Assembly (NCBI GenBank): GCA_030731845.1
Contig: JANQTF010000307.1
Coordinates: forward strand, 1 to 36,264
Length of the DNA stretch: 36,264 nt
DNA from: Bacteroidia bacterium
GTDB taxonomy: Bacteria; Bacteroidota; Bacteroidia; J057
Direction: 5' to 3'
The notes under the pieces are model-generated. The model was not told the origin of the DNA. It searched no databases and was given only the letters and a program-made list of their open reading frames with translations. The translations under genes were made by a program, and so were the position numbers. Shown piece by piece: positions 4,925 through 29,679 of the stretch. The first letter of the stretch is position 1. Each line of letters begins with the position of its first letter.

Positions 4925-7900
4925 ATGAAGTTCTGGGACGGCATCATTGATGTGAACGAGATCCCCGCCATTTCGCCTCCAAAAAAACAAGACATCTGGA
5001 TCATGCGTGGGCTCATTGGTGTGGGCCTGATCACCATGACAGTTTTCGTCGTCTGGTTTTTTAAGGAACGTCATATTGGGAATCCTTTTTTGTTTTGGGC
5101 CCTGGCCATTGCTATCGGGTTCAAGCTCCTGAGGACCCTTCATGAGTGGTATCACTATGCTGGGGTGAGCGTGCCAGAGAGACCGGAATCAACCCGGGAA
5201 TGGACCGTGGATATGTTCACCACCTTTGTGCCTGGAGAGCCTTACTCCATGATCGTGGAAACCCTGACCGCCATGGTCAAGGTGCGATACCCACACACCA
5301 CCTATTTGTGCGATGAGGGAAATGACCCCTATCTCAAGCAAATTTGCGAAGAGCTTGGAGTGATTCATGTGTATCGGGGAACCAATAAATCGAATGCAAA
5401 GGCTGGAAACATCAATTATGCGCTGAAACAGGCCACCGGCGAAATAGCAGTGGTGCTAGACCCAGACCACGTGCCGGCGGAAGAGTTTCTGCATCAGGTG
5501 TTGCCTTATTTTGAGCAAGAAGACATCGGCTATGTGCAATCGGTGCAGGCCTATCACAATCGGGACGAGAGCTTCATTGCCAAGGGTGCTGCCGAGCAGA
5601 CCTACCATTTTTATGGCCCGATGATGATGTCGATGAATACCTATGGCACGGTGCAGGCCATCGGGGCCAACTGCGCCTTTCGCCGATCGGCGCTCGACTC
5701 TATCGGTGGCCACGCCGCCGGACTATCCGAAGACATGCACACCGCAATGCAGCTTCATGCCAAGGGCTGGAAATCGACCTATGTGCCCGAGGCACTCACA
5801 CGCGGGCAAGTGCCTGCCACCCTCAGCGCCTACTATCAGCAGCAGCTCAAGTGGACCCGGGGCTCTCTTGATCTGCTTTTCCACACAGTGCCAAAGCTCG
5901 TCAGAAACTTCACATGGCGGCAAGCGCTCCATTATTTCACGCTGCCTCTTTATTTCCTCTTTGGCCTGATCGCACTCATTGATTTGTCTATCCCGATCAT
6001 TTCGCTATTCACTTCAGAGGTACCTTGGCTGGTGGAGATGGATTTGCTACTGCAATATTCCTTGCCGCTTCTGGCCATTATCCTGGTGATCAGGCAATTT
6101 GCCCAGCGGTGGCTCCTTGAGCCTCACGAGCGTGGGATGCACGTGCTGGGAGGAACCCTCATGCTTGGTACCTGGTGGATTTTCCTGATCGGATTTATCT
6201 ACACCGTGATCGACAAAAAAGTTCCCTACATCCCAACGCCCAAAAATGATGACCCCAAAAATGAGCTTCGCCTCAGCATCCCCAACATAGCGGTCATGAT
6301 CATTTCGCTGGCTGCGATAGCCTACGGCCTGTCTCGCGACTGGAGCCCTTATATGCTGATGATGGCGGCTTTTGCCATGTCAAATGTATTGATGCTGGGG
6401 CTTGTGGTGCTCATGAGCCAGCAAAAAACCATGATGAAAGCCTATCAGGCGTTGTATGGCGGTGCATTTAACCCTTTGCGGGTAAACTGGTATGTATTTC
6501 GCCAACGATTTATCTATCAGCCATTGGGAAGTGCCTATATGGGGCTGGCGGTTGTTTTGTTGATCACCTTAGGGGTCACAGCCTTGCCTGCTCTTACCAA
6601 ATTCGACCCCGAAGACCTGAAGCCACCACGCATAAAAGAATCGGAGGGACGATATGTGGGATTAGGCAGCGCCGAAAAAATCGGGGATATCTCTTCTCAA
6701 CTTATCTCGATAGACCTCCCCCCAGATCCTGCCACCTGGGCCACGATTCCCACACAGACCACAAGCCTTCCTGTCAGAATTCCCCTGGTGTCGTGGAAGC
6801 CATGGGAAACCGATTCCTTGCCCAATGGCCAGTGGGCGAGCTACCAATCCATTGCAGAAGGAAACTGGGATGAGGTGTTTCTTCAAGGGTTTGAGGCACT
6901 CAACAGCCTCGGACTGCCTGTATATGTGGTGTTTGCGCCTGATCCCGACCGAATGAGGAAGGGCTGGACAGAGCTGCCAGAAAATGCTCCCAAATACTAC
7001 CTGCTTGCCTGGCAGCATCTGCGAAGCATGGCGCAAGCCGAAGGTCTGTATCAGCTCGTTTGGTTTCAGCAGGTATTTGGCAATGAAGCCATGTCGCGTT
7101 ACCTCTCCAAAGGAAAATATGCGGATGTAATCGCACTTTCGGGTGCCGCATCTGCGCCGGACGAAGTCTCTTTTGAAGGCAGGCTGCAAATCTTCCATCG
7201 CTTGTTTGGCCAGGATCCTACCTGGATCATGGATTTACAGCCAGGCAAGGACGCTGAGCTTGTTGTTGCCATGCTCGATCAGCAGACCCTGCAAGGTGTT
7301 AGTTGGAGTGGCGAGACAGCCATGGAAGAAAAAACGTGGAAGGATTATTTTTCTGACAAACATGCAGCCCCACGCCCACCCTTGGTAGCAGCCACCGCCG
7401 AAGGTGACCTTCATTTACCACTCGTCAAAACGTCAACGGCCACCGCTACCAAACGCTTGGTAGAAGTTTCGGAGGACACCTATTCTTTGGTAGTAAATGG
7501 AGAGCCATTTTACATCAAAGGCATTGCCTACAATCCCTCGCACGATTGGCGGGATGGATTTTATCCCCTCACCCGACCAGTATTAGAGGCTGATTTCCAC
7601 AAAATAAAAGCCCTGGGAGCCAATACCATCAGGCGCTATAGCCCAAGGATTTATGACTACAACCTGTTGCAAATTGCGGAAGAGCAAGAGCTCAAGGTGC
7701 TCTATGGCTTCTGGTTTGACCCAGAGGTGGACTATTTCCGCGATGTGGCCCAGGTGAAAAAATATAAACGCGAGGTGATCGACCGGGTGAAAGAGCTCAA
7801 AGATCGCAAAGCTGTGCTCGCATGGGGGGTCGGCAATGAGACCTGGGGGCTACTCAAGCATCATTTCCGAAAAACCTATTTGCCAACCGTGCGCATGGCC

Positions 7901-8704
7901 TATCTTCAGATGATCGAGGAAATTGTAGCAGAAATCCAGGAAATCGATCCGGCACGTCCCGTTTTTTCCAGTCTTGAGCACTCCGAGGATCTTCCCATGG
8001 GGCTCGCCTCTTATCGAGATCGGGTTCCATCTCTGGATTTCATTTCAGTGAATTCTTATTACGAAGGGCAACTCAAAGATCTTGATTCTCTGTGTGCTGC
8101 TCACTACCCCGACAAGCCCTACCTCGTGTCTGAGTTTGGACCAGAAGGCTATTGGGACCCCCGCTTCACTGCATTCAACGCGCTTGAGATGCCGCTTGAG
8201 CCTAGTTCCTATGAAAAAGCCGCTTCCTATCACGAGGACTGGACCCAATATGTGCTTCCCCACGCTGGAAAAAATCTTGGAGGCGTAGCATTCTGCTGGA
8301 TGGATAGAATGGAAGAAACCCTGACCTGGTTTGGTCTCACTGACAGTAAGGGCCGGATCAGGCCAGCTTACTACGCCCTGAAAAGTGCCTGGGCCGGGCA
8401 GGAGGAGTGGAGCTTCCCAGTACCGGAGGTGTTTCTGCCACAGACACAATACCCCTATGAAGGATTTGTGCTTCAGGGCACCATGGCGGAAAAATCCTTA
8501 TCTGGCCTGAATGTGGAGTGGGAAGTGAGAGAGGATCACATCCTTGCCCCGATTGAAGGGATCGAATATGGAGCCGGAAGCCTGCGCGCATGGCTTCCCG
8601 GTGATCAGCTCACACACGAGAAAGCCTACAGGGTCTATCTCACCCTCGTAGATTCCACCGGCACGTTTTCCACCTCCGCTTCATTGCCCATTTACTACCC
8701 ATGA
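4925..8704 (+). CDS. GT2 processive synthase fused to GH26-like and retaining GH TIM-barrel domains
   Basis: A 1259-residue membrane protein. Residues about 25-70 hold two membrane helices. Residues about 90-320 are a GT2 domain with cellulose-synthase-type signatures: D130 (LCDEGN), DPD at 179-181, SED at 268-270 and QQLKW at 306-310, the last a variant of Q(Q/R)xRW with Lys for Arg. Six or so membrane helices follow to about residue 560. Residues about 600-790 resemble a GH26 fold (SWKPWE, later a Tyr/Trp-rich AWQHL segment), but the expected catalytic Glu positions are not Glu. Residues about 850-1160 form a clan-A TIM barrel with acid/base E972 (GVGNETW) and nucleophile E1070 (LVSEFGPEGYW), followed by a beta-sandwich tail. 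Likely role: polymerise and export a beta-glycan, then trim or transglycosylate it in the periplasm. No PilZ domain is visible. The stop overlaps the next start as ATGA. The polymer made is unknown. Confidence 0.85.
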   Translation: MKFWDGIIDVNEIPAISPPKKQDIWIMRGLIGVGLITMTVFVVWFFKERHIGNPFLFWALAIAIGFKLLRTLHEWYHYAGVSVPERPESTREWTVDMFTTFVPGEPYSMIVETLTAMVKVRYPHTTYLCDEGNDPYLKQICEELGVIHVYRGTNKSNAKAGNINYALKQATGEIAVVLDPDHVPAEEFLHQVLPYFEQEDIGYVQSVQAYHNRDESFIAKGAAEQTYHFYGPMMMSMNTYGTVQAIGANCAFRRSALDSIGGHAAGLSEDMHTAMQLHAKGWKSTYVPEALTRGQVPATLSAYYQQQLKWTRGSLDLLFHTVPKLVRNFTWRQALHYFTLPLYFLFGLIALIDLSIPIISLFTSEVPWLVEMDLLLQYSLPLLAIILVIRQFAQRWLLEPHERGMHVLGGTLMLGTWWIFLIGFIYTVIDKKVPYIPTPKNDDPKNELRLSIPNIAVMIISLAAIAYGLSRDWSPYMLMMAAFAMSNVLMLGLVVLMSQQKTMMKAYQALYGGAFNPLRVNWYVFRQRFIYQPLGSAYMGLAVVLLITLGVTALPALTKFDPEDLKPPRIKESEGRYVGLGSAEKIGDISSQLISIDLPPDPATWATIPTQTTSLPVRIPLVSWKPWETDSLPNGQWASYQSIAEGNWDEVFLQGFEALNSLGLPVYVVFAPDPDRMRKGWTELPENAPKYYLLAWQHLRSMAQAEGLYQLVWFQQVFGNEAMSRYLSKGKYADVIALSGAASAPDEVSFEGRLQIFHRLFGQDPTWIMDLQPGKDAELVVAMLDQQTLQGVSWSGETAMEEKTWKDYFSDKHAAPRPPLVAATAEGDLHLPLVKTSTATATKRLVEVSEDTYSLVVNGEPFYIKGIAYNPSHDWRDGFYPLTRPVLEADFHKIKALGANTIRRYSPRIYDYNLLQIAEEQELKVLYGFWFDPEVDYFRDVAQVKKYKREVIDRVKELKDRKAVLAWGVGNETWGLLKHHFRKTYLPTVRMAYLQMIEEIVAEIQEIDPARPVFSSLEHSEDLPMGLASYRDRVPSLDFISVNSYYEGQLKDLDSLCAAHYPDKPYLVSEFGPEGYWDPRFTAFNALEMPLEPSSYEKAASYHEDWTQYVLPHAGKNLGGVAFCWMDRMEETLTWFGLTDSKGRIRPAYYALKSAWAGQEEWSFPVPEVFLPQTQYPYEGFVLQGTMAEKSLSGLNVEWEVREDHILAPIEGIEYGAGSLRAWLPGDQLTHEKAYRVYLTLVDSTGTFSTSASLPIYYP

Positions 8705-10053
8705 CAAGCATCTTATCCTTCAAGGCCTTCTCCCCTCAACATCGCTTGCTACATAGATTTGCCGCGCTGCTGCTCCTTTGCTTGTTAGGGGCTTGCAGTT
8801 CTGAAAACGGAAAAAATACCTGGAAAACAGCGATAACCGGGACAGGTGTAGAAATCCTGCAAACGGAAAACGGCTTCCAACTTTTTCGCGAAGGCAAGCC
8901 CTTTGTGATCAAGGGGGCATCGGGCTACCTCTACTGGGAAGAACTGGCCCGGCAGGGGGCCAATACCGCCAGAACCTATGACAGCTTTCGGCTCGACAGC
9001 CTGCTCGACCATGCCGATACCCTCGGCCTCGCCGTTATCGCCGGGATGGATGTGCCCAAGATCAGGGACGGATTCGATTTCAGCAGACAGGAAGCCACTG
9101 ATGCACTCACCGATTCCCTGCTTCAAACTGTGAAGCAATATAAAAATCATCCTGCTCTCCTTTGCTGGGCACTGGGAAACGAGGTGAATCTCCTGCACTT
9201 TGACAACAAGGATTACTGGACATGGACCAACCAAATGGTGCAAGCCATTCATGCCGCAGATCCTGCTCATCCTGTGATTGTGAGTGTGAATGAACGAAGG
9301 AGAAACTACGAATTGGCCCAAAAACTGGCACCCTCAATAGACATTCTCGGGGTCAATGTATTTGCCAATATGGAGCAAATGATCGGTGATCTGGACGCGG
9401 AAGATACCTGGAGAGGCCCTCTTCTTGTCACAGAATGGAGCCCCATTGGGTATTGGGAGGCCGAGAGAACCCAATGGAATGCCCCGGTAGAATCCAGTGA
9501 CCTGAAAAAAGCAGCCCTCTATGAATGGTATTATCAGACCTATCTCTCTGAGCAAAACCCTCGCTTGCTGGGTTCGCTTGTATTTTATTGGGGGCAAAAA
9601 TTGGAGCGCACCGATACCTGGTTCAGCCTTTTTTCCATTGAAAGTGAAAAAACAGCCGTAGTGGACGCCATGGGGAAAGTATGGGGAGCCCCCCAACCAG
9701 ACAATCATGCTCCAACCGTAGGAGCCCTCTTTTTTGATGGACCGGAAGTTGCCCGCGATGTCTTCCTGCCGGCAGGAGATCAAGTCAGGGTGCAGGCTTT
9801 TCCAGAAGACCTTGATGGAGACGAGATCGTGCTGACCTGGGAGATTTTACCCGAAGGCGATTATATGTATATCACTGGCGGAGATGCGGAAATCAGGCCT
9901 GAGCCCGTGGAGACGGAAATAGCTACAGAAGGGAATTTTGCCAGCTTTCAGGTCCCTGAAAAAACAGGAGCCTATCGAATCTTCGCTTACGCCAGAGACG
10001 CAAAAGGAGGCTTTGGCTATCACAACCTCCCTTTTTATGTGGTCAATAAATAA
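8701..10053 (+). CDS. Lipoprotein glycoside hydrolase, TIM barrel plus beta-sandwich
   Basis: A 450-residue protein starting at the ATG that overlaps the upstream stop (ATGA, 8701-8704), so the two genes are probably translationally coupled. A long n-region and hydrophobic stretch end in a lipobox (LLGAC, Cys32), predicting a periplasmic lipoprotein; no acidic surface-export signal follows the Cys. Residues about 50-330 are a retaining clan-A barrel with acid/base E161 (CWALGNEVN) and nucleophile E245 (LLVTEWSPIGYW). Residues about 335-450 look like an Ig/PKD-type beta-sandwich. The barrel and tail align segment by segment with residues about 850-1259 of the upstream synthase fusion, so this is a paralogous copy of the same module. 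It most likely acts on the same polysaccharide, as hydrolase or transglycosylase. The exact GH family (GH2-like versus GH72-like) cannot be decided by eye. Confidence 0.85.
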   Translation: MTSILSFKAFSPQHRLLHRFAALLLLCLLGACSSENGKNTWKTAITGTGVEILQTENGFQLFREGKPFVIKGASGYLYWEELARQGANTARTYDSFRLDSLLDHADTLGLAVIAGMDVPKIRDGFDFSRQEATDALTDSLLQTVKQYKNHPALLCWALGNEVNLLHFDNKDYWTWTNQMVQAIHAADPAHPVIVSVNERRRNYELAQKLAPSIDILGVNVFANMEQMIGDLDAEDTWRGPLLVTEWSPIGYWEAERTQWNAPVESSDLKKAALYEWYYQTYLSEQNPRLLGSLVFYWGQKLERTDTWFSLFSIESEKTAVVDAMGKVWGAPQPDNHAPTVGALFFDGPEVARDVFLPAGDQVRVQAFPEDLDGDEIVLTWEILPEGDYMYITGGDAEIRPEPVETEIATEGNFASFQVPEKTGAYRIFAYARDAKGGFGYHNLPFYVVNK

Positions 10054-10062
10054 TCTCGTCCG

Positions 10063-10662
10063 CTATTCAGATACCCACGACACTTTTTCGGACCAGTCAA
10101 CGACGCGGCGCCCGGGAGGAATGATGCCTGTGGGCACGCCGAGATAGAAAAATCCCAGACATTTGTCTTGTGGCCCGAGCCCAAGCCATTCTCTCAACGC
10201 ATCGCGATAGGTGAACCCTCCGGTGCTCCAATAGCCACCAAGCCCGAGGGCCGTGGTCATGAGCCACATATTTTGGACCGCACAGGCCACCGCTTCAATC
10301 TCCTCGATTTCGGGGATGTTGGCGTTGCTACCGCGCTTCATGCAGATCGCTATTACATGGGCGGCTTCTGTGGGGCGGCTGGCGAGGCTGTCGTATTTGG
10401 CCTGCTGAAACAGCTCGGGAGGCGTTTCGCTCTGGTAAATATCTGCCTGTGCTTTGCCAAGGCGTGCACGCGCATCGCCCGAAAACACCTGAAAAAACCA
10501 GGGCTCCGTGCGCCCATGATTGGGCGCCCAATGCGCCGCTTCGATGAGCTTCCCCACCATGTCGAGGGGGATATCATCGCCAGAATACTGTTTCGGATAC
10601 ACAGAGCGACGGCTCAGAATGAGGTCGCGCAAAGCTTCAGCAGAAAAGGTGTCAATGGCCAT
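10063..10662 (-). CDS. Nitroreductase family FMN-dependent oxidoreductase
   Basis: A 199-residue protein. The start is set at the ATG giving MAIDTFSAEALRDLI; a longer in-frame extension to 10776 would run into the divergent peroxidase gene. Family signatures are the N-terminal SRRSVYPKQY segment (phosphate and flavin contact), AAHWAPNHGRTEPW, and the later GLGGYWSTG and LGFFYLGVP segments typical of the NfsA/NfnB fold. Such enzymes are homodimeric, bind FMN and reduce nitro compounds or quinones with NAD(P)H; the physiological substrate is usually unknown. The stop lies only 9 nt from the convergent stop of the lipoprotein glycosidase, with no terminator hairpin between them. The upstream neighbour on the other strand is a glutathione peroxidase, so a redox-defence pairing is possible but is inference. 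Confidence 0.88.
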   Translation of the reverse strand: MAIDTFSAEALRDLILSRRSVYPKQYSGDDIPLDMVGKLIEAAHWAPNHGRTEPWFFQVFSGDARARLGKAQADIYQSETPPELFQQAKYDSLASRPTEAAHVIAICMKRGSNANIPEIEEIEAVACAVQNMWLMTTALGLGGYWSTGGFTYRDALREWLGLGPQDKCLGFFYLGVPTGIIPPGRRVVDWSEKVSWVSE

Positions 10663-10767
10663 ATCACAGAATTGAGCGTGAAGTTGGCTGATTTTTCTCA
10701 AGAATCCTGAAGTTGAGGAACAAATCAGGCCAAAGTTCTGTTCAACATTCTGATTGATCTTTATCCA

Positions 10768-11328
10768 ATGAAACATCGCATCCTCACAATTCTCCCCTGT
10801 TTCCTTTTCCTCTTGTCAATTTCTCCCCTCATGGCACAAACAGACAGCCTATCAGCATCGGTTCATTCCTTCACCATGACTTCGCTCCAGGGCGAGGAAG
10901 TGTCTCTGGGCGACTACGCCGGAAAGGTAGTGGTGATTGTGAATGTGGCCTCTAAATGTGGGCTCACGCCGCAGTATGAAGACCTTCAGCGCTTCTACAC
11001 CGAGTATGCAGATCGTGGGGTCGTGGTGCTTGGCTTTCCTGCCAATAATTTTGCCGGACAAGAGCCCGGTACCAACGAGGAGATCGCACAGTTTTGCAGC
11101 GCCAATTATGGCGTTTCCTTCCCGATGTTTTCCAAAATATCTGTCAAAGGCAAAGAGCAGCACCCGCTCTATCAATTTCTCGAAGAAGCCACAGGCGAAA
11201 AACCCGGCTGGAATTTTCACAAATACCTCATTAACCAGGAAGGTCAGGTCGTTGCCTCCATTTCTCCCCAAACCGGCATCTACGACCCCAAAGTGATGGC
11301 CATGCTCAAAGAGCTGGGGATTGAGTAA
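10768..11328 (+). CDS. Secreted glutathione peroxidase-like thiol peroxidase
   Basis: A 186-residue protein with an N-terminal signal peptide ending near LMAQ (about residue 23), so it should act in the periplasm. The thioredoxin-fold GPx domain has the three classic blocks: NVASKCGLT with peroxidatic Cys64 (not selenocysteine, codon TGT), FPANNFAGQEPG with Gln98, and PGWNFHKYL with Trp148 and Asn149. Together these give the Cys-Gln-Trp-Asn active site. Bacterial cysteine GPx proteins normally reduce hydroperoxides using thioredoxin rather than glutathione. The length fits the family plus signal peptide. It is divergent from the nitroreductase, with 105 nt between the start codons that must hold both promoters. 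Confidence 0.93.
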   Translation: MKHRILTILPCFLFLLSISPLMAQTDSLSASVHSFTMTSLQGEEVSLGDYAGKVVVIVNVASKCGLTPQYEDLQRFYTEYADRGVVVLGFPANNFAGQEPGTNEEIAQFCSANYGVSFPMFSKISVKGKEQHPLYQFLEEATGEKPGWNFHKYLINQEGQVVASISPQTGIYDPKVMAMLKELGIE

Positions 11329-11426
11329 TACTGGACTCTAGCTCTCACGAGCCGGATTCATGACTTCGAATAAAACATACCACAGAATAAGGATTACTGC
11401 GCCTCTCTTTTTGTGGACAGGGTGTA

Positions 11427-11574
11427 CTTTCTTCCAACCACGGATTACTCAGATTTTCACAGATTTTTCTATATGTAAAATGAGGAATTTGTGATGCCCT
11501 TTCTTTCAACCACAGATTACTCAAATCTACTCCGTGTTAATCTGTGAAATCTGTGGTGTACTTTCTTTCGACCA
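11427..11574. repeat. Intergenic imperfect direct repeats with internal inverted repeat
   Basis: A 27-nt unit at 11427-11453 recurs at 11499-11525 with three mismatches, and its first 14 nt recur at 11561-11574 with one mismatch. Units begin CTTTCTT and contain CCACRGATTACTCA. Inside, ACCACAGATT (11509-11518) is a perfect inverted match to AATCTGTGGT (11548-11557), so the region can fold as a hairpin. This type of CACAGATT-rich intergenic repeat is widespread in bacterial genomes; it may be a small non-autonomous element. Confidence 0.7.
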
Positions 11575-11663
11575 TTGATACCATCCTGAAAGTATTCAAG
11601 GCACTCAACGCGGACATCAGCTTCCGCATCAAACTGGAGGATCAGTTTCTCTCCCTTCCCTGA
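11571..11663 (+). pseudogene. 3' relic of an XRE/HipB-like antitoxin or regulator gene
   Basis: The frame ending at TGA 11661-11663 reads as about 30 codons with the pattern TIDTILKVFKALNADISFRI. That closely resembles the last helix and C-terminal strand of XRE-family antitoxins, where the helix-turn-helix is followed by a 'pTLdTLlkvlkAL' helix. There is no start codon and no DNA-binding helices upstream in frame; the sequence immediately 5' is the repeat cluster, whose third partial unit overlaps the first codons. Most likely an older toxin-antitoxin gene was truncated here. A chance reading frame is possible given the short length. Confidence 0.45.
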
Positions 11664-11670
11664 GCCGGAC

Positions 11671-12738
11671 TCACTCCAGTCCATACCACCACCCCCAAAG
11701 CCAGGCGGCTTTGCCGCTGAGGACAGAGCTTTCGCTGAGCGAGGACCAGCTCGTTTCGGGAAGTTCTTCTTCCATCTGCTCGCCGTTGGGTCGGGTGAGA
11801 ATCACCCGATATCGAGCAGCTCGCTCCCCTTCTTTCACATCGGCCATGCCGTTGTAGCGCGAAGGATCAGGCCACTGTGGCTCGTGGTCTTGTCCGCTGC
11901 TAGTGAGCAGATAGTCTTTGCGGGCTACCCATTCCCACAATTTGTAGCGATACTTGGTGGCATACACGGGCACCTGATCGTAGATTTCTTCCTGATATTC
12001 CACCTGCCGGCTTTCATACACGGGCTCGTTGCAATATTGCGTTTCGAAGTAGCCGTTTCCCTTGTCGATGGTGCCGCAGGCCACACGACGAGAGCCTGTC
12101 TGCACCCGCTCGGTGCGCGTGCGGGTCTCGTAGCCCCTGAATACTTTGTTGTAGTGGTGAATGTCCTGAAAAGAACTCACTTCAAATGCACCCGCAGGTG
12201 TACTCCAATCCTCGTGGGCCACGGCCTCTTTGTGTAGCATTTGAATGCTGCGCTCCCAGCGAAAGCCATCTACCTGCACCTCCACAGTGCGCGGGATCGC
12301 GCCACCACCTACCACCGCAGCTATGAGCAGGAGAATAGGCAGAAAAAAGCTGCGCTTTTTCCGGGGTTTATTCCGCTCGATTTCTTCTGGGTGAAGGGTG
12401 CGCTTGCGGGTTTCGGGCGAAACGGGAATTTCCTGCTGCGAATATCGGCGCTCTTGCAGCGCCACATCCTCGCTTTCTTCGTCGCGAGGATTTCCGCAGG
12501 ATTGGCAAGTGTCTTGTGAAGCTTTATTTTGACCGTGACAATGGCCACAGATCCAGTCGGCACCGGCCCGTGCCGCGCGAATACTCGCTTCATCCCGAAG
12601 CTCCTCAGCATCTGAGGGCAGATAAAAGCGTACGTCGCGAGGGCGGCTCGCACCACAGTTTGGGCACCGGGTCTCTGGTCCCAGCACGCCACGCTGCCCA
12701 CAACTAGGGCAATCCCACCTTCCGATTTTGACCGCCAT
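11671..12738 (-). CDS. Membrane protein with zinc ribbon and RanBP2-type zinc finger
   Basis: A 355-residue protein. The ATG at 12738 is preferred over an in-frame TTG at 12762. Residues 10-28 form a four-Cys zinc ribbon (C10, C13, C25, C28). Residues 62-81 match the RanBP2-type finger exactly: W-x-C-x2-C-x3-N-x6-C-x2-C, with W62, C64, C67, N71, C78 and C81. A basic stretch (KPRKKR, about 124-129) precedes one membrane helix (about 130-148). The remaining roughly 200 residues are rich in Tyr, Arg and Glu, contain two more Cys, and end in a Trp-rich tail. By the positive-inside rule the zinc fingers should be cytoplasmic and the large C-terminal domain periplasmic. Function unknown; it resembles uncharacterised zinc-ribbon proteins. 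Nothing in the neighbourhood points to a role. Confidence 0.8.
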   Translation of the reverse strand: MAVKIGRWDCPSCGQRGVLGPETRCPNCGASRPRDVRFYLPSDAEELRDEASIRAARAGADWICGHCHGQNKASQDTCQSCGNPRDEESEDVALQERRYSQQEIPVSPETRKRTLHPEEIERNKPRKKRSFFLPILLLIAAVVGGGAIPRTVEVQVDGFRWERSIQMLHKEAVAHEDWSTPAGAFEVSSFQDIHHYNKVFRGYETRTRTERVQTGSRRVACGTIDKGNGYFETQYCNEPVYESRQVEYQEEIYDQVPVYATKYRYKLWEWVARKDYLLTSSGQDHEPQWPDPSRYNGMADVKEGERAARYRVILTRPNGEQMEEELPETSWSSLSESSVLSGKAAWLWGWWYGLE

Positions 12739-12988: not shown

Positions 12989-13372
12989 TCAGGCATTCTC
13001 TACCTGGGCCTCGTAGTCGGCGGCGCTCAGCAGTGCAGACCTGTCAGCACCTTCGCTGATCTGCACCTTGATCATCCAACCTGAGCCGTAAGGTTCTTCA
13101 TTTACAAACTGTGGATCGTCTTCCAGTGCGGCATTCACCTCCAGGATGGTGCCTGTAATCGGCATAAAGAGATCAGAAACAGTTTTAACCGCCTCTACTG
13201 AGCCAAATACGTCGTTGGCTTCGACCTCATCGCCCACCGTTTCAATGTCCACGTACACAATGTCTCCCAATTGAGACTGTGCAAAATCGGTAATACCAAT
13301 CACCGCAATGTCTCCTTCAATTCTTACCCATTCGTGCTCGCTGGTATAAAGAAGGTCCTGTGGAATGTTCAT
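12989..13372 (-). CDS. gcvH: Glycine cleavage system H protein
   Basis: A 127-residue protein from the ATG giving MNIPQDLLYTSEHEW, the standard GcvH beginning; the longer open frame to 13468 is rejected. It has the conserved start YTSEHEWV, the DFAQSQLGDIVYV segment, and the lipoyl site GSVEAVKTVSDL with Lys63 as the lipoylated residue. The C-terminal part (NEEPYGSGWMIKV) also matches. H protein carries the aminomethyl group on its lipoyl arm between the P, T and L proteins of glycine cleavage in the cytoplasm. Length fits the family. A TATCTTTG box 55 nt upstream of the start suggests its own promoter. In flavobacteria gcvH is, from memory, often next to sprA; here it is about 8 kb away. Confidence 0.96.
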   Translation of the reverse strand: MNIPQDLLYTSEHEWVRIEGDIAVIGITDFAQSQLGDIVYVDIETVGDEVEANDVFGSVEAVKTVSDLFMPITGTILEVNAALEDDPQFVNEEPYGSGWMIKVQISEGADRSALLSAADYEAQVENA

Positions 13373-13426
13373 GTGACTTAAAATTGAAGGGGAATCCTTG
13401 ATAAAAATTATGTGTCTGCTACTTTT

Positions 13427-13434
13427 CAAAGATA
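13427..13434 (-). promoter_or_regulatory. Candidate Bacteroidota -7 box upstream of gcvH
   Basis: On the minus strand this reads TATCTTTG, an exact match to the TAnnTTTG box used by the Bacteroidota primary sigma factor. It lies 54 nt before the gcvH start. The -33 TTG element is poor (a TTC at about the right spacing), so confidence is moderate. Confidence 0.5.
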
Positions 13435-13476
13435 ACTCACCCTCGGGTAAGCTATCTGAAGAAAACACAGCGAAAT

Positions 13477-14715
13477 CTACAAAGTTTTTTGAGCCCCTGC
13501 ACGAAACTCCTCAAGGAGAATATGCGCCTTATGAACAAATTCCTGCATATTCACAGAAAGCATCGCCTCCTCTTCCACCCATTCCCGGTTTTGCCTGGCG
13601 GAATGAGCCTTCCATTGATCCAGGCTTTCCCAAATTTCTTTGATAGAAAGTGCCAAATTATCAGGGGTAAATGGCTGCACGACCCGCCCATGCAACCCGT
13701 CCTGCATCACTTCTCTCGTGGCGGGGGTGTCATTTACCACTGGAATCGCCCCGATATAGCGCCCTTCGCTCAAGGCATTGGAATATCCGTCATAAACAGG
13801 AGCCGAGACAAACACGTCGGTAAAATTCCACAACAAGCACATGTCTTCGCGGGGAATCACCTCTCTGATGAGTGAAAACTGAGGAAACGCGCTTTCGAGC
13901 GCCTTTGCCTCGCGGTCCATGGCCACGGGCACCGCATAGCCTGCGCTTAGCATGATCACACGTGTGTGGCCAAGTGCACCGCTTCGCAGCAGCATAGCAA
14001 ATGCTTCCAAAATGATATCGCCCTGATAAATGGGCTTGATGCCACGAGGGCTGAGCAAGAGCCCTTGCCCGGGTGCGAGGCCATAGGTCTGCCGAATTCT
14101 TTGCTCCTGCTCCTCGCTCATCTCAAATAATGCGGGTTCAACGCCCCAACGGTTGAGATATGACTTGTGTGCTGGCACAGCAAACCATTGCCGCATGGCA
14201 TCCACGAGCACGCGATTATCGCCGCTCACCATATCGGCAGCATGCAGAGCCTTGAAGACTTCTCTGCGAAATAGCCATTGCTTGAGTGGGTATTGGAGTC
14301 GCTCTTTCCAGGTGGCTTTCCCACTCAGGCTCCGGCTCCACAGCCGCTCAGGGGCCACTTCTTCTCCATCTCTGGGCGAATACTCCAAAATATCGGCTCC
14401 CATGGCCACGGCCATGATCGGGTGCAGGCCCGCACGCCGCGCCCAAACGCCAAATGGCGTCACGTCAATGGGATTCACGATATCGATTCTGTGGGCCAGG
14501 AGCGCCTCTCTCAATCTGTCGCCGCTACTCAGGTAGCTAAAGTAGCTGAGCTTGCCACGCCAGCTGAGTCTCGGCTTCACCTGCACACAGGGCACGTGGG
14601 GCAACTGATACTCAGAAAAACTGAATACCGTTACTTTCAGCCCAAGTGCCAGCAGGGCGCTTGTCCATTTACGGGTATGAAAACTATCGGGCTCAGCAAG
14701 TACAGCGATGTGCAT
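13477..14715 (-). CDS. Glycosyltransferase family 4
   Basis: A 412-residue GT-B fold glycosyltransferase. The N-terminus (HIAVLAEPDSFHTRKWTSAL) is the usual first strand and helix of GT4 acceptor domains. The C-terminal nucleotide-sugar domain shows WGVEPALFE, SPRGIKPIYQG and the signature DGYSNALSEGRYIGAIPVV, which corresponds to the ExxxxxxxE donor-binding motif with Asp in place of the first Glu. Retaining transfer of a sugar from a nucleotide donor is expected, in the cytoplasm, probably for LPS or exopolysaccharide. Acceptor and sugar are unknown. It lies 104 nt upstream of the gcvH start on the same strand, with a separate promoter candidate, so it is probably its own transcription unit or cotranscribed with the gene upstream. 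Confidence 0.88.
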   Translation of the reverse strand: MHIAVLAEPDSFHTRKWTSALLALGLKVTVFSFSEYQLPHVPCVQVKPRLSWRGKLSYFSYLSSGDRLREALLAHRIDIVNPIDVTPFGVWARRAGLHPIMAVAMGADILEYSPRDGEEVAPERLWSRSLSGKATWKERLQYPLKQWLFRREVFKALHAADMVSGDNRVLVDAMRQWFAVPAHKSYLNRWGVEPALFEMSEEQEQRIRQTYGLAPGQGLLLSPRGIKPIYQGDIILEAFAMLLRSGALGHTRVIMLSAGYAVPVAMDREAKALESAFPQFSLIREVIPREDMCLLWNFTDVFVSAPVYDGYSNALSEGRYIGAIPVVNDTPATREVMQDGLHGRVVQPFTPDNLALSIKEIWESLDQWKAHSARQNREWVEEEAMLSVNMQEFVHKAHILLEEFRAGAQKTL

Positions 14716-23503: not shown

Positions 23504-23544
23504 AAAAAAAATGGTTAAATCCGAGCTATTAAATCAGTGCTCGG
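23504..23544 (-). terminator. Intrinsic terminator of the MoxR/DUF58 operon
   Basis: On the minus strand a stem CCGAGC/GCTCGG (23544-23539 with 23526-23521, 12-nt loop containing the DUF58 stop codon) is followed nine nt later by eight consecutive T residues (23511-23504). It lies at the very end of the leftward operon. The stem is short, so confidence is moderate. Confidence 0.55.
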
Positions 23545-24854
23545 GCCTTGATTTCGAGGTACTTGTTGATCGTATTGACGGTAAGATTTTGAGGTGGCGT
23601 GAGAATACTCTGGATACCATATTGAGCCAACTCTTTCACAATCAGCTTTTTGTCGAGCGCAAATTGCTCTCCAACTGCTTTGATATAGATCTCTTCTGTA
23701 TTTGCTGGCTGTGTGGACAGGAGTTCTTTCAGTTCTGTATTTTCAAATAACACGACGATTAAGAGGTGCTGCTTCGCAATTCGTTGCAAAAATGGTAGCT
23801 GTCGGCGCATCGCAGATTGTGACTCGAAATTGGTGAACAAGACCAGTAAACTCCGATGGGAGATTCTCCGACTGATATGAGCATACAGCCGCTCGTAATC
23901 AGACTCCTGAAAATCTGTTTCCTGCCGATAGAGCAATTCCTGAAAATTGCGCATGTGTCTGGGCTGATTGCTCGCTGGCAAAAAGTGGTCGATGCCATTG
24001 GCAAAGGTGACGAGGCCGCTGCGGTCATGCTTGTACATGGCAATATTGGCCAGCACAAGGCTGGCATTGATCGCATAGTCGAGCAAGCTCATCCCTTCAA
24101 AAGGCATTTTCATGGTGCGGCTCTTGTCGATCAGGCAATAGATCTGCTGCGAGCGCTCATCCATGTACTGATTCACCATGAGCTTGCTGCTGCGGGCAGT
24201 CGCTTTCCAATTGATGGTGCGATAGTCGTCTCCGCGCACGTATTCTTTGATCTGCTCAAACTCGGTGGTGTGCCCGAGTCGGCGGATGGGCTTCACGCCC
24301 AGCTCTGTGAGGCGATTGGAGACAGCGAGCAACTGATATTTCTGCATTTGCAGGTAGGAGGGATACACAGCAATATTGGTAGCTAGCTCGTATCGATTGC
24401 GCAAGATGATCATTCCAATGGGTGAACGCGCCAACAGGATCAGCCTTCCAAACTCATATTCCCCTCTCGTCACAGGCCTTAGCTCGTAGCTCATGTTTGC
24501 CTCGCCACCTGCTCCGATGCGGACCCGTTTTTTCATGTCCCGCCATTGAAACTGATGAGGCACTTCATCAATTACCTCCACCAAGAGCGGAAATCGATAG
24601 TAGCTCTTGATGTGAATGTGAACCGGGTTCATGTCTCCGTTGGAAAAGCGATCTGGCAAAACCCGTAGGGCCTGAAGTCCTGCTTTTTTTTGCTGAAACA
24701 GCAAAAAAGTATCGAGCCCTACTGCCACGAAAAAGACTGCCAGTGCCATGTAGGCCAAAGGCAACATCCCAGGCAGCAGATATGCCGTCATGAAGAGGCA
24801 AATCAAGCCACCAAGGACCAAAAACAGCCGTACATGAACGAAGAGGTCTTTCAT
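23529..24854 (-). CDS. DUF58 domain protein
   Basis: A 441-residue membrane-anchored protein. Two N-terminal hydrophobic segments (LFLVLGGLICLFMTAYLL and LAYMALAVFFVAVGL) are followed by a beta-rich region and the DUF58 signature VRGDDYRTINWKATARSSKLMVNQY (about 205-232). Next comes a von Willebrand A-like half with LIDKSRTM, a MIDAS-like DxSxT/S site. DUF58 proteins are regularly paired with MoxR ATPases and are thought to work in envelope stress or in assembling metal-containing complexes. Its start codon directly abuts the MoxR stop (24854/24855), so translation is probably coupled. The terminator overlaps its stop codon. Family confident, precise role unknown. Confidence 0.92.
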   Translation of the reverse strand: MKDLFVHVRLFLVLGGLICLFMTAYLLPGMLPLAYMALAVFFVAVGLDTFLLFQQKKAGLQALRVLPDRFSNGDMNPVHIHIKSYYRFPLLVEVIDEVPHQFQWRDMKKRVRIGAGGEANMSYELRPVTRGEYEFGRLILLARSPIGMIILRNRYELATNIAVYPSYLQMQKYQLLAVSNRLTELGVKPIRRLGHTTEFEQIKEYVRGDDYRTINWKATARSSKLMVNQYMDERSQQIYCLIDKSRTMKMPFEGMSLLDYAINASLVLANIAMYKHDRSGLVTFANGIDHFLPASNQPRHMRNFQELLYRQETDFQESDYERLYAHISRRISHRSLLVLFTNFESQSAMRRQLPFLQRIAKQHLLIVVLFENTELKELLSTQPANTEEIYIKAVGEQFALDKKLIVKELAQYGIQSILTPPQNLTVNTINKYLEIKARALI

Positions 24855-25895
<1,041 letters not shown>

Positions 25896-25901
25896 GGCTG
25901 G

Positions 25902-27143
25902 TTAAGATAGCGTTTTGAGTCTAAAAAATTCAATCATTCTGCTCAGTTCAAGAAGTTCTGATTCGGTTACTATCGTTGCTTTTTCTGTTCGGATGATGGT
26001 TTTGATCAGTTGGTTCACAAATGGGACTTCATGACCGCTTTTGGCTGCCAACACCTGGATAAAAACAGACGATCCCCAAGGATCTGGAAGTAGGTAGAGC
26101 TCTTTGAGCTGTTCTTTGAACACCAGGATGCGTTTTAGCGCCAACTGATGATGATTCTCCTGCTGAAAGGTAAGTCTGCCTATTGTTTCCACAAAGTCGA
26201 GGGTCATATTGGGAAGGGGAGCTCTCACAGGAATGATGCGTTGCACCCTTCTTGTTTGGAAAACTCCCACAAGGAGCAGGCCTAAGAGAGAAAGTAGGAG
26301 CGCCATTCGCAGGGCTTCATGTTGCCAGATATAGCTGAGCGGGCCTGGACTTTCATCTTCTAACTCGTCCTGGCTATCACGTCTTCTGTTGCCAATCTTG
26401 ATCCATTCATCCCAATAAATGGTTTCGATACCCTGTGGAATCACGGAGAGTAATCCAGACACGAGGGTTTCGTATTCAGGGCGCAGGAGTCCATAGTTGG
26501 TGATGATGGTAGGGAATGTGGAAACAAACATACCGCCGTCTCCCATGGGAAACCAGACCGCTACGGGCTGCCCTCCGGCAGTGCTAGCCAACACCTCAGC
26601 GTCATGATTCAGACTGCCGGAAGGCAGTCGATAGAGATAGCGAAGCGGGATTTTATACTCCTCCTCTGGCCAATGATCCCGAACAAAAAATACTGAGATG
26701 CTGTCCTGCATGTCGAGCCACTCTCCTTGCTCATGGCTGGCATCCATGGTGTTCATTTCAAGTTCTTCTTCCAGGTATTCGGAGAAATTTTCTGTAGCAA
26801 GCCAGATCAGGTTGCCATCATAAGCGAAATCTTCCAGGGCTTGCCACTCGTCTGACGAAGGATTAAACTCGTCATTCACAAATACATAAGCAGAAAAACT
26901 GCCATCTGCTTCCTCCAGCACATCAAGGGGAGATTCCTCCGCGATGACAAAGGTGGCGGGTTTGAGGAAGTCGCGTGCGGCTTCTCGCAGCACTTCCGCA
27001 CCAAAAGGCTGCTCATCGGCGCCGGACCAGGTTTGCTTCCAATTTGTGCCCATGCCTCTCCATATCAAGCTACCCACATAGAGAATCAGGATCAGGACAA
27101 CCACGATCATAATGATTCTATTGAAGGAGGAGGAGAAACGCAT
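25902..27143 (-). CDS. DUF4350 domain membrane protein
   Basis: A 413-residue protein with an N-terminal membrane helix (FNRIIMIVVVLILILYVGSL), a periplasmic-type region of about 230 residues beginning PFGAEVLREAARDF (the DUF4350 / GATase-like fold), and a second membrane helix (about 275-293, LRMALLLSLLGLLLVGVF) followed by a cytoplasmic tail. It has no visible catalytic motif. DUF4350 proteins occur next to DUF4129, MoxR and DUF58 genes, which is the arrangement here. Spacing is 21 nt to the DUF4129 gene and six nt to moxR. A role in envelope stress sensing or substrate presentation to the MoxR partner is inference from context. Confidence 0.82.
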   Translation of the reverse strand: MRFSSSFNRIIMIVVVLILILYVGSLIWRGMGTNWKQTWSGADEQPFGAEVLREAARDFLKPATFVIAEESPLDVLEEADGSFSAYVFVNDEFNPSSDEWQALEDFAYDGNLIWLATENFSEYLEEELEMNTMDASHEQGEWLDMQDSISVFFVRDHWPEEEYKIPLRYLYRLPSGSLNHDAEVLASTAGGQPVAVWFPMGDGGMFVSTFPTIITNYGLLRPEYETLVSGLLSVIPQGIETIYWDEWIKIGNRRRDSQDELEDESPGPLSYIWQHEALRMALLLSLLGLLLVGVFQTRRVQRIIPVRAPLPNMTLDFVETIGRLTFQQENHHQLALKRILVFKEQLKELYLLPDPWGSSVFIQVLAAKSGHEVPFVNQLIKTIIRTEKATIVTESELLELSRMIEFFRLKTLS

Positions 27144-27164
27144 AAAATATGGGCTAACAAGGCG

Positions 27165-27815
27165 TTATTGGAATGGGTGAATCTGATTGGAAATGGCATC
27201 GTACTGCTCTTGCGAGATCGCTCGCTCGCCATACCACACGTAGGCAAAAGACCTCGATAGCGCGGCAAATGCCTGCTGCAGAGCCTGATCTTTGATCTCC
27301 AGGAGATAATCGGCGTCGGTTTTGTGCGCGTGCCAGTCGATTTGCTTGCGTGCCTGGAGCAATTGCAATGCCCGCAGATGATGGTAGCGAAGAGCGAGAC
27401 GCCAATCGGAATTTGACTCCGCTTCCTGAATCAGGCTGCTATAATTGGCTTTTGTGAGCGTCTCAACGTTTTCTGGGAGCTGCGCAAAACCAGGGGCAAC
27501 GCGCTTGCCTTCCGATCCGGCAAATTGCCGGATCACCAAAAAAGCCACCACGATCAGGAGTCCTCCCAAGAGAAAATACATGATGATCTGGATGGCTTGA
27601 GAATAGGCTGGCGGCCCCTCCTCTTCGATTTGTATATTTTCCGACTCATCGCGCGCATTTTTTTCGACAGGCTCCAGCCCATATTGATATTCCTTCACCT
27701 GCCGCAAGGAGTCGATTTGCCGGGCCGAAAAGCTGCGCGGGCTGTCGGATAACTGGGCAAATGCCAGGGAGGAAGCCAAAATAAGCCCCAAACACATGAC
27801 GATTCGCTGGATCAT
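27165..27815 (-). CDS. DUF4129 domain membrane protein
   Basis: A 216-residue protein. The ATG at 27815 overlaps the SpoIIM stop as ATGA (27812-27815), which decides the start. A signal-like hydrophobic segment (IVMCLGLILASSLAFAQ) is followed by a charged region, a membrane helix (IIMYFLLGGLLIVVAFLVI, about 86-104) and the C-terminal DUF4129 helical block, recognisable from DWRLALRYHHLRALQLL, ADYLLEI and AYVWYGERAIS. DUF4129 is usually fused to transglutaminase domains or stands alone beside MoxR/DUF58 genes; here it stands alone. No enzymatic residues are seen. Likely a membrane partner in the same complex. Confidence 0.83.
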   Translation of the reverse strand: MIQRIVMCLGLILASSLAFAQLSDSPRSFSARQIDSLRQVKEYQYGLEPVEKNARDESENIQIEEEGPPAYSQAIQIIMYFLLGGLLIVVAFLVIRQFAGSEGKRVAPGFAQLPENVETLTKANYSSLIQEAESNSDWRLALRYHHLRALQLLQARKQIDWHAHKTDADYLLEIKDQALQQAFAALSRSFAYVWYGERAISQEQYDAISNQIHPFQ

Positions 27816-28834
27816 GATTGCTGCATTTCGAGCCAATGTTGATCAGCTGATGAAGGAAGGGAAATGCTGAGGCCTTGTTGTCTTTTTTTCCACAAATATG
27901 GATAGACCAAGTAGTAACCAACGATGAAGCACAACGACATGAGGATGATCATCAACTTGGCCGCAAGCGGCCACGCGGTGAGACGTGTCACATATCCCTC
28001 CAACCACGCCGCGAGTAAAAACACCGGAATGAGCCCGACGATAATTTTTACGCCTTTTTTTGCTTCTGACTGCAAGGATTGCCTGCGGGTGAGGGTGCCG
28101 GGAAACAAGATGCTGTTGCCAAGTTTGATCCCAGCAGCACCTGCAATCACGATGGCAGATAATTCAAGCGTGCCATGAATATAGATCACAGGCAAGGCTT
28201 CCCATAGATTGCCATGGAGGTGAAAGAGGCCGAAGAAAGCACCAAGCATAAGGCCATTGTTAAAAAGGACATACATCGTTCCTACAGAAAGGAACATCCC
28301 GGCAGCAAAGGCGAAGAAAGACACCCGGATGTTGTTCACCGCGATTTCGAGAAACATCGGCAGGGAAGGCTGCCTTTTATACACCCCCATGGGATCGCCA
28401 TCCTTGATATTTTCGATGGTCATATTGACATACCTGTCGCCGAGAACCGAGCGGATGAAGGTATCTCCATTCAAAGCGGCAAGAATGCCGATGATAAATA
28501 CAAAGGTAAAGATGCCGAAAGCATAGAGAAGCTCCTTGCGAGAATCCGCGAGGATCTCGGGAAGTTCTTCGGTCCAAAAGGAGAGGAGGCGCTGTTTTTT
28601 GCTTCGTTTGTTTTGATAGATCTGCAAATGGGTGCGTGCAGCAAGGCCATTGAGATACTTGACGGTTTGGCTCCTGGGATAAAAGGTTCGCGCATAGGCG
28701 AGGTCGTCGGTTAGCTGCACGTAGAGCTCTGCCAGCCGATCCGGATCAGTGGCAGAGCTGGCCGATTGGGTGAGCAGTTGCTCATATTCCAGCCATTTAT
28801 CTTTGTTCTTTCGCAGAAATGCGGGTTCTCTCAC
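27812..28834 (-). CDS. SpoIIM-family (DUF95) membrane protein
   Basis: A 340-residue protein. The start is a GTG at 28834, chosen because the family opening 'MREPAFLRKNKDKW' begins there and no suitable ATG is near. The N-terminal soluble part (about 1-95) is followed by about five to six membrane helices, with the conserved segments NNIRVSFFAFAAGMFLSVGT, NGLMLGAFFG, IYIHGTLELSAIVIAGAAG and PVFLLAAWLEGYVTR typical of SpoIIM/DUF95. In non-sporulating bacteria this family travels with RDD and MoxR/DUF58 genes, as here. It is the first gene of the leftward operon and overlaps the DUF4129 gene. An RDD gene is divergent 104 nt away. Role in envelope remodelling is inferred, not shown. Confidence 0.9.
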   Translation of the reverse strand: MREPAFLRKNKDKWLEYEQLLTQSASSATDPDRLAELYVQLTDDLAYARTFYPRSQTVKYLNGLAARTHLQIYQNKRSKKQRLLSFWTEELPEILADSRKELLYAFGIFTFVFIIGILAALNGDTFIRSVLGDRYVNMTIENIKDGDPMGVYKRQPSLPMFLEIAVNNIRVSFFAFAAGMFLSVGTMYVLFNNGLMLGAFFGLFHLHGNLWEALPVIYIHGTLELSAIVIAGAAGIKLGNSILFPGTLTRRQSLQSEAKKGVKIIVGLIPVFLLAAWLEGYVTRLTAWPLAAKLMIILMSLCFIVGYYLVYPYLWKKRQQGLSISLPSSADQHWLEMQQS

Positions 28835-28912
28835 TGGAAAGTGTATCTTTCTGCCAGAGCCTGAGGCTGCCGATTGGGCAGATCTATTCCCTCATGCCAT
28901 CTGGATGTTTAG

Positions 28913-28920
28913 CAAACTAA
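28913..28920 (-). promoter_or_regulatory. Weak candidate -7 box for the SpoIIM operon
   Basis: The minus strand reads TTAGTTTG, seven of eight positions of TAnnTTTG, 79 nt upstream of the GTG start within the 104-nt divergent spacer. No convincing -33 element was found. Confidence 0.2.
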
Positions 28921-28938
28921 GTTAACCATTTTTAAGGG

Positions 28939-29679
28939 ATGAACACGATTATCATTCCAACTACTCAAAATATTGAGCTTGAATACCCTGTCGCCCATAT
29001 TGGCGACCGCATCCTGAGCGGCCTCATCGACCTGGGTGTGCTGGTCGCTTACACTTGGTTTTGGATCTGGTTATTACAAAATTATCAGACCCATGACAAC
29101 TGGGAGGATTATGCCACTGATACCATCTATCTGCTTGCGCTGCTGCCCGCTATGACTTATTCTCTGTGGACCGAAAGCTGGTTTCAGGGGCGCACACTCG
29201 GCAAAAAATTGATGAACCTTCGCACCATTCGCCTAGATGGTGCTTCGCCCGGCTTTTCTGAATACGCCTTGCGATGGATGCTCCGGATTGTGGATATTTG
29301 GGTGACTGCGTCTGTGCTCCTACCTGGATTGATTGGCATGATTACCATTTCCACAGGAAAAAAAGGGCAGAGATTGGGGGACATTTCCGCAGGAACATCG
29401 GTGGTCAAAATGCGGCTTGTCACCACCTTTTCTGATACCATTTTTGTGGAAACCCAAGCCAGCTATCAGGTGAATTTTCCTGAAATCAGTCGCCTCTCCG
29501 ACCGGGATATTTCAATCCTAAAAGAAGTGCTTGACGCGGGCACAAAGAATGACAACCCCGTGCTGATCCAAAAGCTGGCAAATAAGGTTCAAGCAGTTAT
29601 AGGCGTGCAATCAACGCTTCCTCCTGATCAGTTTTTGGCCATTGTGCTCAAAGATTATAACTTTTTGTTTCGCGACTAA
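28939..29679 (+). CDS. RDD family membrane protein
   Basis: A 246-residue protein. The N-terminal two-thirds contains the RDD domain: IGDRILSGLIDLGVLVAYTWF (in parts, DRILSGLIDLG), a second helix (YLLALLPAMTYSLWTE), the GRTLGKKLMNLRTI motif, and GKKGQRLGDISAGTSVV. Three to four membrane helices are predicted, and a soluble tail of about 75 residues follows. RDD proteins are of uncertain function; some are implicated in ion exchange. The gene is divergent from the SpoIIM-DUF4129-DUF4350-MoxR-DUF58 operon, a recurring neighbour relation that suggests shared function. No terminator is evident after it. Confidence 0.9.
   Translation: MNTIIIPTTQNIELEYPVAHIGDRILSGLIDLGVLVAYTWFWIWLLQNYQTHDNWEDYATDTIYLLALLPAMTYSLWTESWFQGRTLGKKLMNLRTIRLDGASPGFSEYALRWMLRIVDIWVTASVLLPGLIGMITISTGKKGQRLGDISAGTSVVKMRLVTTFSDTIFVETQASYQVNFPEISRLSDRDISILKEVLDAGTKNDNPVLIQKLANKVQAVIGVQSTLPPDQFLAIVLKDYNFLFRD

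Follow-up and report, generated by a model that had tools for sequence, protein, structure and literature searches.

The window, the whole stretch of 36,264 nucleotides analysed here, holds two overlapping genes that probably form a synthase-dependent β-glucan system, in which a GT2 synthase carries a tethered module of glucanase fold and acts together with a free GH158 partner. The features of the two genes are as follows.

4925..8704, + strand: GT2 - TM - GH26-fold - GH158-like fusion protein, 1259 aa, single ORF
5201..5821, + strand: GT2 catalytic domain, residues 93-299
5312-5314, + strand: D130 of GT2, D motif
5459-5467, + strand: DPD 179-181 of GT2, DxD motif
5726-5734, + strand: SED 268-270 of GT2, ED motif
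5840..5854, + strand: QQLKW motif, residues 306-310, with K in place of R of the usual QxxRW
5915..6601, + strand: membrane helices C-terminal to GT2, from helix count and the positive-inside rule
6218..6244, + strand: KVPYIPTPK, residues 432-440, putative counterpart of the BcsA gating loop (FxVTxK)
6647..7429, + strand: GH26-fold domain, about residues 575-835, from profile and predicted fold
6941-6943, + strand: D673, replacing a GH26 catalytic Glu in the alignment
7232-7234, + strand: D770, replacing a GH26 catalytic Glu in the alignment
7460..8404, + strand: GH158-like TIM barrel, about residues 846-1160, with N971
7838-7840, + strand: E972 of the GH158-like barrel, catalytic pair
8132-8134, + strand: E1070 of the GH158-like barrel, catalytic pair
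8417..8701, + strand: C-terminal region of the fusion, residues 1165-1259; the BuGH158 profile match runs to chain residue 405
8701..10053, + strand: P0002, GH158 lipoprotein, 450 aa, lipobox LLGAC; 4-bp overlap with the fusion stop (ATGA)
9181-9183 and 9433-9435, + strand: catalytic residues E161 and E245 of P0002; N160 adjoins E161

The fusion and its synthase domain

The fusion occupies a single frame, in which D130, DPD, SED, QQLKW, E972 and E1070 all lie where the original prediction had placed them. Because the source genome is a 390-contig draft, one might suspect that an assembly or gene-calling artefact has joined separate genes. There is practically no chance of this, as a full-length, colinear ORF with the same domain order is found in all of the best 80 relatives (of 295 found) that were examined for fusion and neighbourhood, isolates included. 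A genome belonging to a different class of the phylum carries it as well, and fusions of this kind are spread over many Bacteroidota.

The GT2 part matches BcsA both in sequence (PDB 5ej1, E 4e-38) and in fold (E 3.6e-24), and combines the D, DxD and ED motifs of a processive, BcsA-like GT2 with channel helices. Residues D130, D179, D181, E269, D270, Q306, Q307, K309 and W310 are invariant in 87/87 aligned family members, as are T438 and K440 of the gating-loop-like motif, and the GT2 assignment made in the original prediction is thereby borne out. The protein is not a BcsA in the strict sense, with a TIGR03030 score of 168.7 against a cut-off of 699.1. No PilZ or BcsB is matched anywhere in the genome, which is ~94% complete, so that the absence of such partners first remarked beside the fusion extends to the whole genome.

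The GT2 domain is about as far from cellulose synthases as from GT2 synthases of other kinds, at 25-29% identity. An attempt to assign the linkage from its sequence failed, a plasmid search giving only cellulose-synthase-like and unnamed GT2 proteins in that same range of identity. The position of BcsA E299, the one published diagnostic residue checked, is E/D in BcsA and Arg in CrdS and BgsA (PMC6821405); its equivalent is Tyr/Phe in all 87 members of the fusion family, which fits none of the three. Given this residue and the equal distance to the different synthase types, the GT2 itself does not tell the linkage.

The AlphaFold model of residues 1-1200 (pLDDT 81, pTM 0.78) has helices at 331-363, 372-397, 448-471, 475-498 and 537-559 and an interface helix at 407-428, the last membrane helix being extra relative to BcsA. 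Helix count and charges (positive-inside rule) agree in predicting a periplasmic C-terminus for the fusion, as had been proposed for its C-terminal domains. The module may sit at the channel exit, but model confidence is low for the linker that leads into the GH26 domain and for the C-terminal part of that domain.

The two tethered barrels

The region described earlier as GH26-like is GH26 by both family profile and its own predicted fold. The best GH26 match of the profile is the lichenase CtLic26A (PDB 2bv9, E 1.8e-40), with a mannanase at 9e-12 and a β-1,3-xylanase at 6e-11. The GH26 domain matches PF02156 in 28/31 relatives; the window's own copy is undetected by Pfam by itself, and its predicted fold is closest to CtLic26A (E 3.2e-8). 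Homology and fold thus place it in GH26, but neither catalytic Glu is there: HE of the acid/base has become PD (P672-D673) and AEF of the nucleophile has become MDL (D770), and from its residues the barrel looks dead. The automatic alignment put a Glu at the nucleophile position of the window, and a second alignment, which is the one used here, put D770 there. In this second alignment, five members (L041, L042, L045, L068 and L110) have Glu in the nucleophile column and not in the acid/base column. The GH26 family also includes mannanases and xylanases.

The second barrel, originally called a clan-A barrel with E972 and E1070, can now be named a GH158-like domain. It matches BuGH158 (PDB 6pal) in sequence with E 2.5e-19, and BuGH158 is also the best fold match of the fusion's model outside BcsA proteins (E 4.6e-16). 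Both glutamates align with E137 and E220, the catalytic residues of BuGH158 (PMC7157763). Residues 1165-1259 probably form an Ig-like domain, to judge from the sequence, like the one that follows the barrel in BuGH158 (PMC7157763). The predicted glycosidase module therefore does consist of two barrels, but only the GH158-like one retains its catalytic pair.

The free GH158 gene and decay of the fused barrels

The gene that overlaps the end of the fusion had been overlooked. Its product, P0002, is homologous to the BuGH158 endo-laminarinase over the whole domain (E 2e-60, residues 49-448), with E161/E245 on E137/E220 and the Asn-Glu / Glu residues of GH158. N160, E161 and E245 are invariant in 79/79 free GH158 proteins. 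A P0002-type gene is present in 74/80 loci and lies <=500 bp from the fusion in 70/80, in four arrangements; that the two genes stay neighbours through such rearrangement speaks for a functional link. In the genomes of two relatives (L051 and L060), both draft MAGs, no free GH158 with E < 1e-30 is found. No third gene recurs universally in the relatives' loci, where other neighbours are confined to minorities, and the upstream SprA was rejected as a partner, since none of the other seven loci compared has a SprA homologue beside the fusion. The original contrast with cellulose-type synthases, which use separate BcsZ-type hydrolases, is thus half right: the covalent fusion is real in 80/80, but a separate, conserved GH158 gene adjoins it.

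The catalytic sites of the fused barrels decay reciprocally, the window having lost that of GH26 and kept E972/E1070 of the GH158-like barrel. The residue states come from one automatic alignment, and the counts are approximate. Both Glu are retained by 34/36 fused GH158-like barrels in the window's clade, while a large clade has 46 GH158-like domains, every one of them without the catalytic pair, and most of its members retain GH26. The GH158-like pair is missing from somewhat more than half of the family members aligned; all four catalytic Glu are intact in 19 members, and some members are without both pairs, which rules out that one or more fused barrels must remain active. Mean pairwise identity falls after catalytic loss from 0.51 to 0.25 for GH26 and from 0.58 to 0.36 for the GH158-like domain, with GT2 constant near 0.74. 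In one genome (G127), the fused GH158-like domain is wholly absent and the free GH158 is present.

The repeated degradation of the fused pairs next to an invariant free GH158, together with the G127 arrangement, would suit fused barrels that are non-catalytic throughout and bind glucan or give structural support, with all cutting left to the free GH158, which would set chain length or release the chain in the manner of BcsZ. This is unlikely, as drift alone would not preserve both Glu almost throughout the window's clade, or all four in 19 members. A Bacteroidota-wide family of β-1,3-containing glucan synthases, whose tethered barrels are reciprocally pseudo-enzymes that guide the chain while the free GH158 performs catalysis, can be put forward tentatively.

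Product, known systems and significance

In the favoured two-gene system, the GT2 would use cytosolic UDP-glucose to build a glucose polymer and, like BcsA, extrude it across the membrane by a channel of its own. From the predicted topology, the chain would come out at two periplasmic clan GH-A barrels, the GH26 fold and then the GH158-like one, which form a C-terminal module tethered by the extra helix. Trimming, release or rearrangement of the chain would fall to the free GH158 lipoprotein, the one glucanase that is constant and active. In the window's lineage, cleavage or transglycosylation probably persists in the fused GH158-like barrel, and the fused GH26 barrel probably survives without catalysis, its fold binding or guiding the chain; trimming, branching or transfer by the module, as first suggested, may occur.

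The polymer had been called unknown. The GT2 alone gives no linkage, but both hydrolase families indicate a β-1,3-containing glucan. As the GH26 relatives are most like CtLic26A, the product is probably a glucan with β-1,3 links, and family specificities point to β-1,3-glucan or mixed β-1,3;1,4-glucan. Cellulose, β-mannan or another GT2 polymer, with the GH26 and GH158 domains acting on a different substrate, is quite improbable: cellulose synthase is the best GT2 match and GH26 has the breadth of activities noted above, but the nearest GH26 is a lichenase by a wide margin, the GH158 enzymes described in PMC7157763 are β-1,3-glucanases, and BcsB and PilZ are not found in the genome.

Covalent attachment of a hydrolase was considered rare, and a precedent exists in the pseudomonad NdvB/'Orphan' cyclic-β-glucan synthases (GH17-TM-GT2; PMC10237404). 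Like the fusion, these join a BcsA-like GT2 to a periplasmic clan GH-A domain and are associated with β-1,3-glucan. They differ in that the fusion has two barrels, a GH26 fold and a GH158-like domain rather than GH17, placed C-terminally, with a separate GH158 gene; the Pfam scan of the fusion gave no match to GH17. By analogy, the GH158 domains, tethered and free, could be mainly transglycosylases that close or branch short periplasmic β-1,3-glucans. Transfer is chemically possible in a retaining clan GH-A family such as GH158 (PMC7157763), cyclisation has been proposed for the covalent GT2-GH proteins of pseudomonads (PMC10237404), and the fused barrel in some members weakly matches the Pfam family of GH72 glucanosyltransferases (L044, 2.7e-9). 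Yet the GH158 enzymes that have been characterised are reported to be endo-hydrolases (PMC7157763), more than half of the aligned members lack the fused pair, and the search found no cyclic product reported for the host organisms, which makes this reading improbable.

The likeness to BcsA with BcsZ lies in the GT2 core (DxD, ED, QQLKW for QxxRW), the channel helices, the gating-loop-like motif and a separate hydrolase next door. BcsZ is a GH8 enzyme, whereas the hydrolase here is GH158; the fusion has C-terminal periplasmic barrels in place of a cytosolic PilZ, and there is no BcsB. CrdS and BgsA probably share the kind of product (β-1,3 or β-1,3;1,4-glucan), but they have Arg where the fusion has Tyr/Phe, and the accessible part of the literature on them describes no glycosidase fusion. 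P0002 is homologous to BuGH158 over its full length and has the Asn and both catalytic Glu; the same residues occur in the fused barrel, whose homology to BuGH158 is more distant. BuGH158 is part of a glucan-degrading PUL, whereas GH158 is here paired with a synthase. Unlike CtLic26A, its best match by profile and fold, the window's GH26 is membrane-tethered and without both catalytic Glu. A literature search for GT2 fusions with GH26, GH158 or GH17 and for GH158 with a synthase, with most subscription journals outside its reach, found no description of the fusion.

If the two-gene reading is true, it gives a concrete prediction of the product and a case of reciprocal catalytic-site decay in tethered enzyme domains. 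Many Bacteroidota, among them culturable Chitinophaga, Pedobacter, Algoriphagus, Dyadobacter and Pontibacter, would produce an endogenous β-1,3-containing glucan by means of two dedicated genes, and this in a phylum known above all for breaking such glucans down.

Domain identities of the fusion and its neighbour

The fusion gene ends within the start of a second gene (stop codon 8702–8704, start 8701), overlooked in the original prediction, which encodes a free GH158 protein. These two genes and three further features of the contig are:

84–4658, + strand: SprA/Sov, the outer-membrane translocon of the T9SS, apparently truncated at the contig start
4925–8704, + strand: fusion ORF, 1259 aa, uninterrupted frame
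8701–10053, + strand: free GH158, 450 aa, lipoprotein signal LLGAC
23529–29679: cluster of MoxR-type AAA ATPase, DUF58, DUF4350, DUF4129, SpoIIM and RDD-domain proteins
31070–32884, − strand: protein carrying SprB repeats and a C-terminal sorting domain of the T9SS type

Between the end of SprA/Sov and the fusion gene downstream lie 266 bp, and the two are not conserved as neighbours. The 31070–32884 protein, given its SprB repeats and sorting domain, is likely a T9SS substrate encoded on the same contig as SprA.

Every motif listed in the original prediction is present in the translated frame at the residue named. Pfam and NCBIfam detect GT2 domains, a distant cellulose-synthase match and, C-terminally, a weakly matching GH2-type barrel. 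In Protein Data Bank searches, the N-terminal half matches BcsA (5ej1, E 3.9e-38) and the C-terminal barrel matches GH158 (9oro, E 3.5e-22; BuGH158 6pal, E 2.5e-19). The proposed clan-A barrel is therefore GH158-like, with E972 and E1070 aligned on the catalytic glutamates of BuGH158 (published as E137 and E220), a retaining endo-beta-1,3-glucanase that is inactive when mutated at N136, E137 or E220 (PMC7157763). The free GH158 matches the family along its length (9oro, E 1.4e-69; 6pal, E 2.0e-60); its E161 and E245 fall on the catalytic positions in the alignment, and neither the Asn nor either Glu varies among 79 free GH158 proteins.

The region described as GH26-like is confirmed as such by the family profile, which matches the GH26 lichenase CtLic26A (E 1.8e-40) far better than a GH26 mannanase (9e-12) or a beta-1,3-xylanase (6e-11), and by its own predicted fold. 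Modelled alone, the window's domain has a pLDDT of 67 and is good only to about residue 205 of 285, and CtLic26A ranks first in a fold search with this model (E 3.2e-8). Pfam GH26 is matched by 28 of 31 family members and not by the window's copy, in which the acid/base motif is VFAPD (D673) versus RFAHE in relatives and the nucleophile motif IMDL (D770) versus AEFG. Because both motifs are altered, this barrel is probably inactive.

Membrane topology

The AlphaFold model of residues 1–1200 (37 sequences, mean pLDDT 81.1, pTM 0.78) has BcsA (3.6e-24) and then BuGH158 (4.6e-16) as its best fold matches. Helices 21–45 and 54–78 precede the GT2 domain, while 331–363, 372–397, 448–471, 475–498 and 537–559, with an interface pair at 407–428, follow it. 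With the GT2 domain in the cytosol, these five crossings are predicted to place residue 560 onward outside, in keeping with the periplasmic C-terminal domains originally proposed. In BcsA, four crossings follow the GT2 domain, so the one extra helix would shift the C-terminus from cytosol to periplasm. A crossing at 407–428 would make the C-terminus cytosolic; by analogy with BcsA, this segment is read as an interface helix. The cytosolic segment 499–536 carries five K/R and zero D/E, and the fusion sequence has no strongly hydrophobic segment beyond residue 560. Model confidence is low for the linker and for some of the GH26 domain, so a position of the module over the channel is only tentative.

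Conservation of the gene pair

Among 60 relative genomes, the fusion occurs in six others of the window's own family and one of another family, with a second GH158 gene adjoining it in all seven. Of 148 genomes sampled from the phylum, seven gave a strong match, the window's own counted, and another a weak one (E 5e-41, restricted to the GT2 part). A scan in which each species was represented by one genome gave 295 relatives, and architecture was read for the best 80. Each of the 80 has the fusion as one ORF, truncated in L069 by the end of its contig; isolates of Pontibacter, Algoriphagus, Chitinophaga, Pedobacter, Dyadobacter, Confluentibacter and Mariniphaga are among them. The covalent fusion proposed earlier is thereby upheld, an assembly artefact is ruled out, and the same domain order is found elsewhere in the phylum, including a complete fusion with an adjoining free GH158 in a genome of a different class (G159).

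The free GH158 is present in 74 of these 80 loci and lies less than 500 bp from the fusion in 70, on the same strand upstream (45) or downstream (6), or on the opposite strand, upstream divergent (17) or downstream convergent (2). Two fusion-bearing draft MAGs (loci L051 and L060) have none at E < 1e-30 and keep all four fused Glu intact, a coincidence that is suggestive only. Two copies of a shorter form, a GT2 with a degenerate GH26-like domain, occur in one genome (G127); both lack the fused GH158-like barrel, and each adjoins a divergent free GH158. The domain identities and the conserved gene pair are firm.

Several loci show further arrangements. In Chitinophaga japonensis (L098, 7926–18170) the two-gene module is tandemly duplicated (GH158, fusion, GH158, fusion). 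Locus L109 has an extra gene (12989–14695) overlapping the fusion end by 4 bp, whose 568-aa product has a hydrophobic segment at its N-terminus and matches GH26 only below threshold; related proteins occur in 11 other loci. About ten loci (L050, L065 and others from Cytophagales) have Wza-like (Poly_export) and Wzc-like genes close to the module, suggesting a tie to polysaccharide export there.

Reciprocal decay of the fused sites and the likely product

The GT2 catalytic residues do not vary in any of 87 members, whereas at the fused GH158-like positions Glu is found in only 39 (E972) and 46 (E1070). A quick tree of the GT2 and membrane region, supported by SH-aLRT only and not firmly fixing the window's exact place, has two sides. 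On the window's side (36 rows) the GH158-like pair is kept in 34, and a mainly Cytophagales group still has an intact GH26, which the window and its neighbours have lost; on the other (46 rows) the GH158-like pair is lost in all 46 and GH26 kept in 40. In groups without the catalytic pair, mean pairwise identity falls from 0.51 to 0.25 for GH26 and from 0.58 to 0.36 for the GH158-like barrel, with GT2 steady near 0.74. Some members lack both fused pairs; catalysis by the tethered barrels is therefore not essential in every member. Locus L036 (G005:C1, ~8327–12315) has an in-frame TAA near the 3' end of the fusion gene and Ala at the fused GH158-like nucleophile; the adjoining free GH158 keeps its catalytic residues.

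The position equivalent to BcsA E299 is Tyr or Phe in 87 of 87 members; it is reported to be E/D in BcsA itself, and both CrdS and BgsA have Arg there (PMC6821405). The GT2 sequence thus does not settle the linkage. Since both hydrolase types, lichenase-like GH26 as well as GH158, act on glucans containing beta-1,3 linkages, the product would most likely be a beta-1,3-glucan or beta-1,3;1,4-glucan. PilZ and BcsB were not found anywhere in the window's genome, in line with the earlier remark that no PilZ domain or other Bcs-type partner adjoins the gene, which makes c-di-GMP control via PilZ unlikely.

The nearest described architecture is pseudomonad NdvB, which combines a periplasmic GH17, a membrane region and a cytosolic GT2, and for which cleavage and cyclisation of beta-1,3-glucan have been proposed (PMC10237404). 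The fusion family resembles NdvB in logic but has other hydrolase families, at the opposite end of the GT2, and a free partner. No description of it was found in the literature searched, whose coverage excludes most subscription journals. We infer the product and mechanism; the fusion itself is a real, conserved and apparently so far undescribed variant of GT2-glycosidase fusions.
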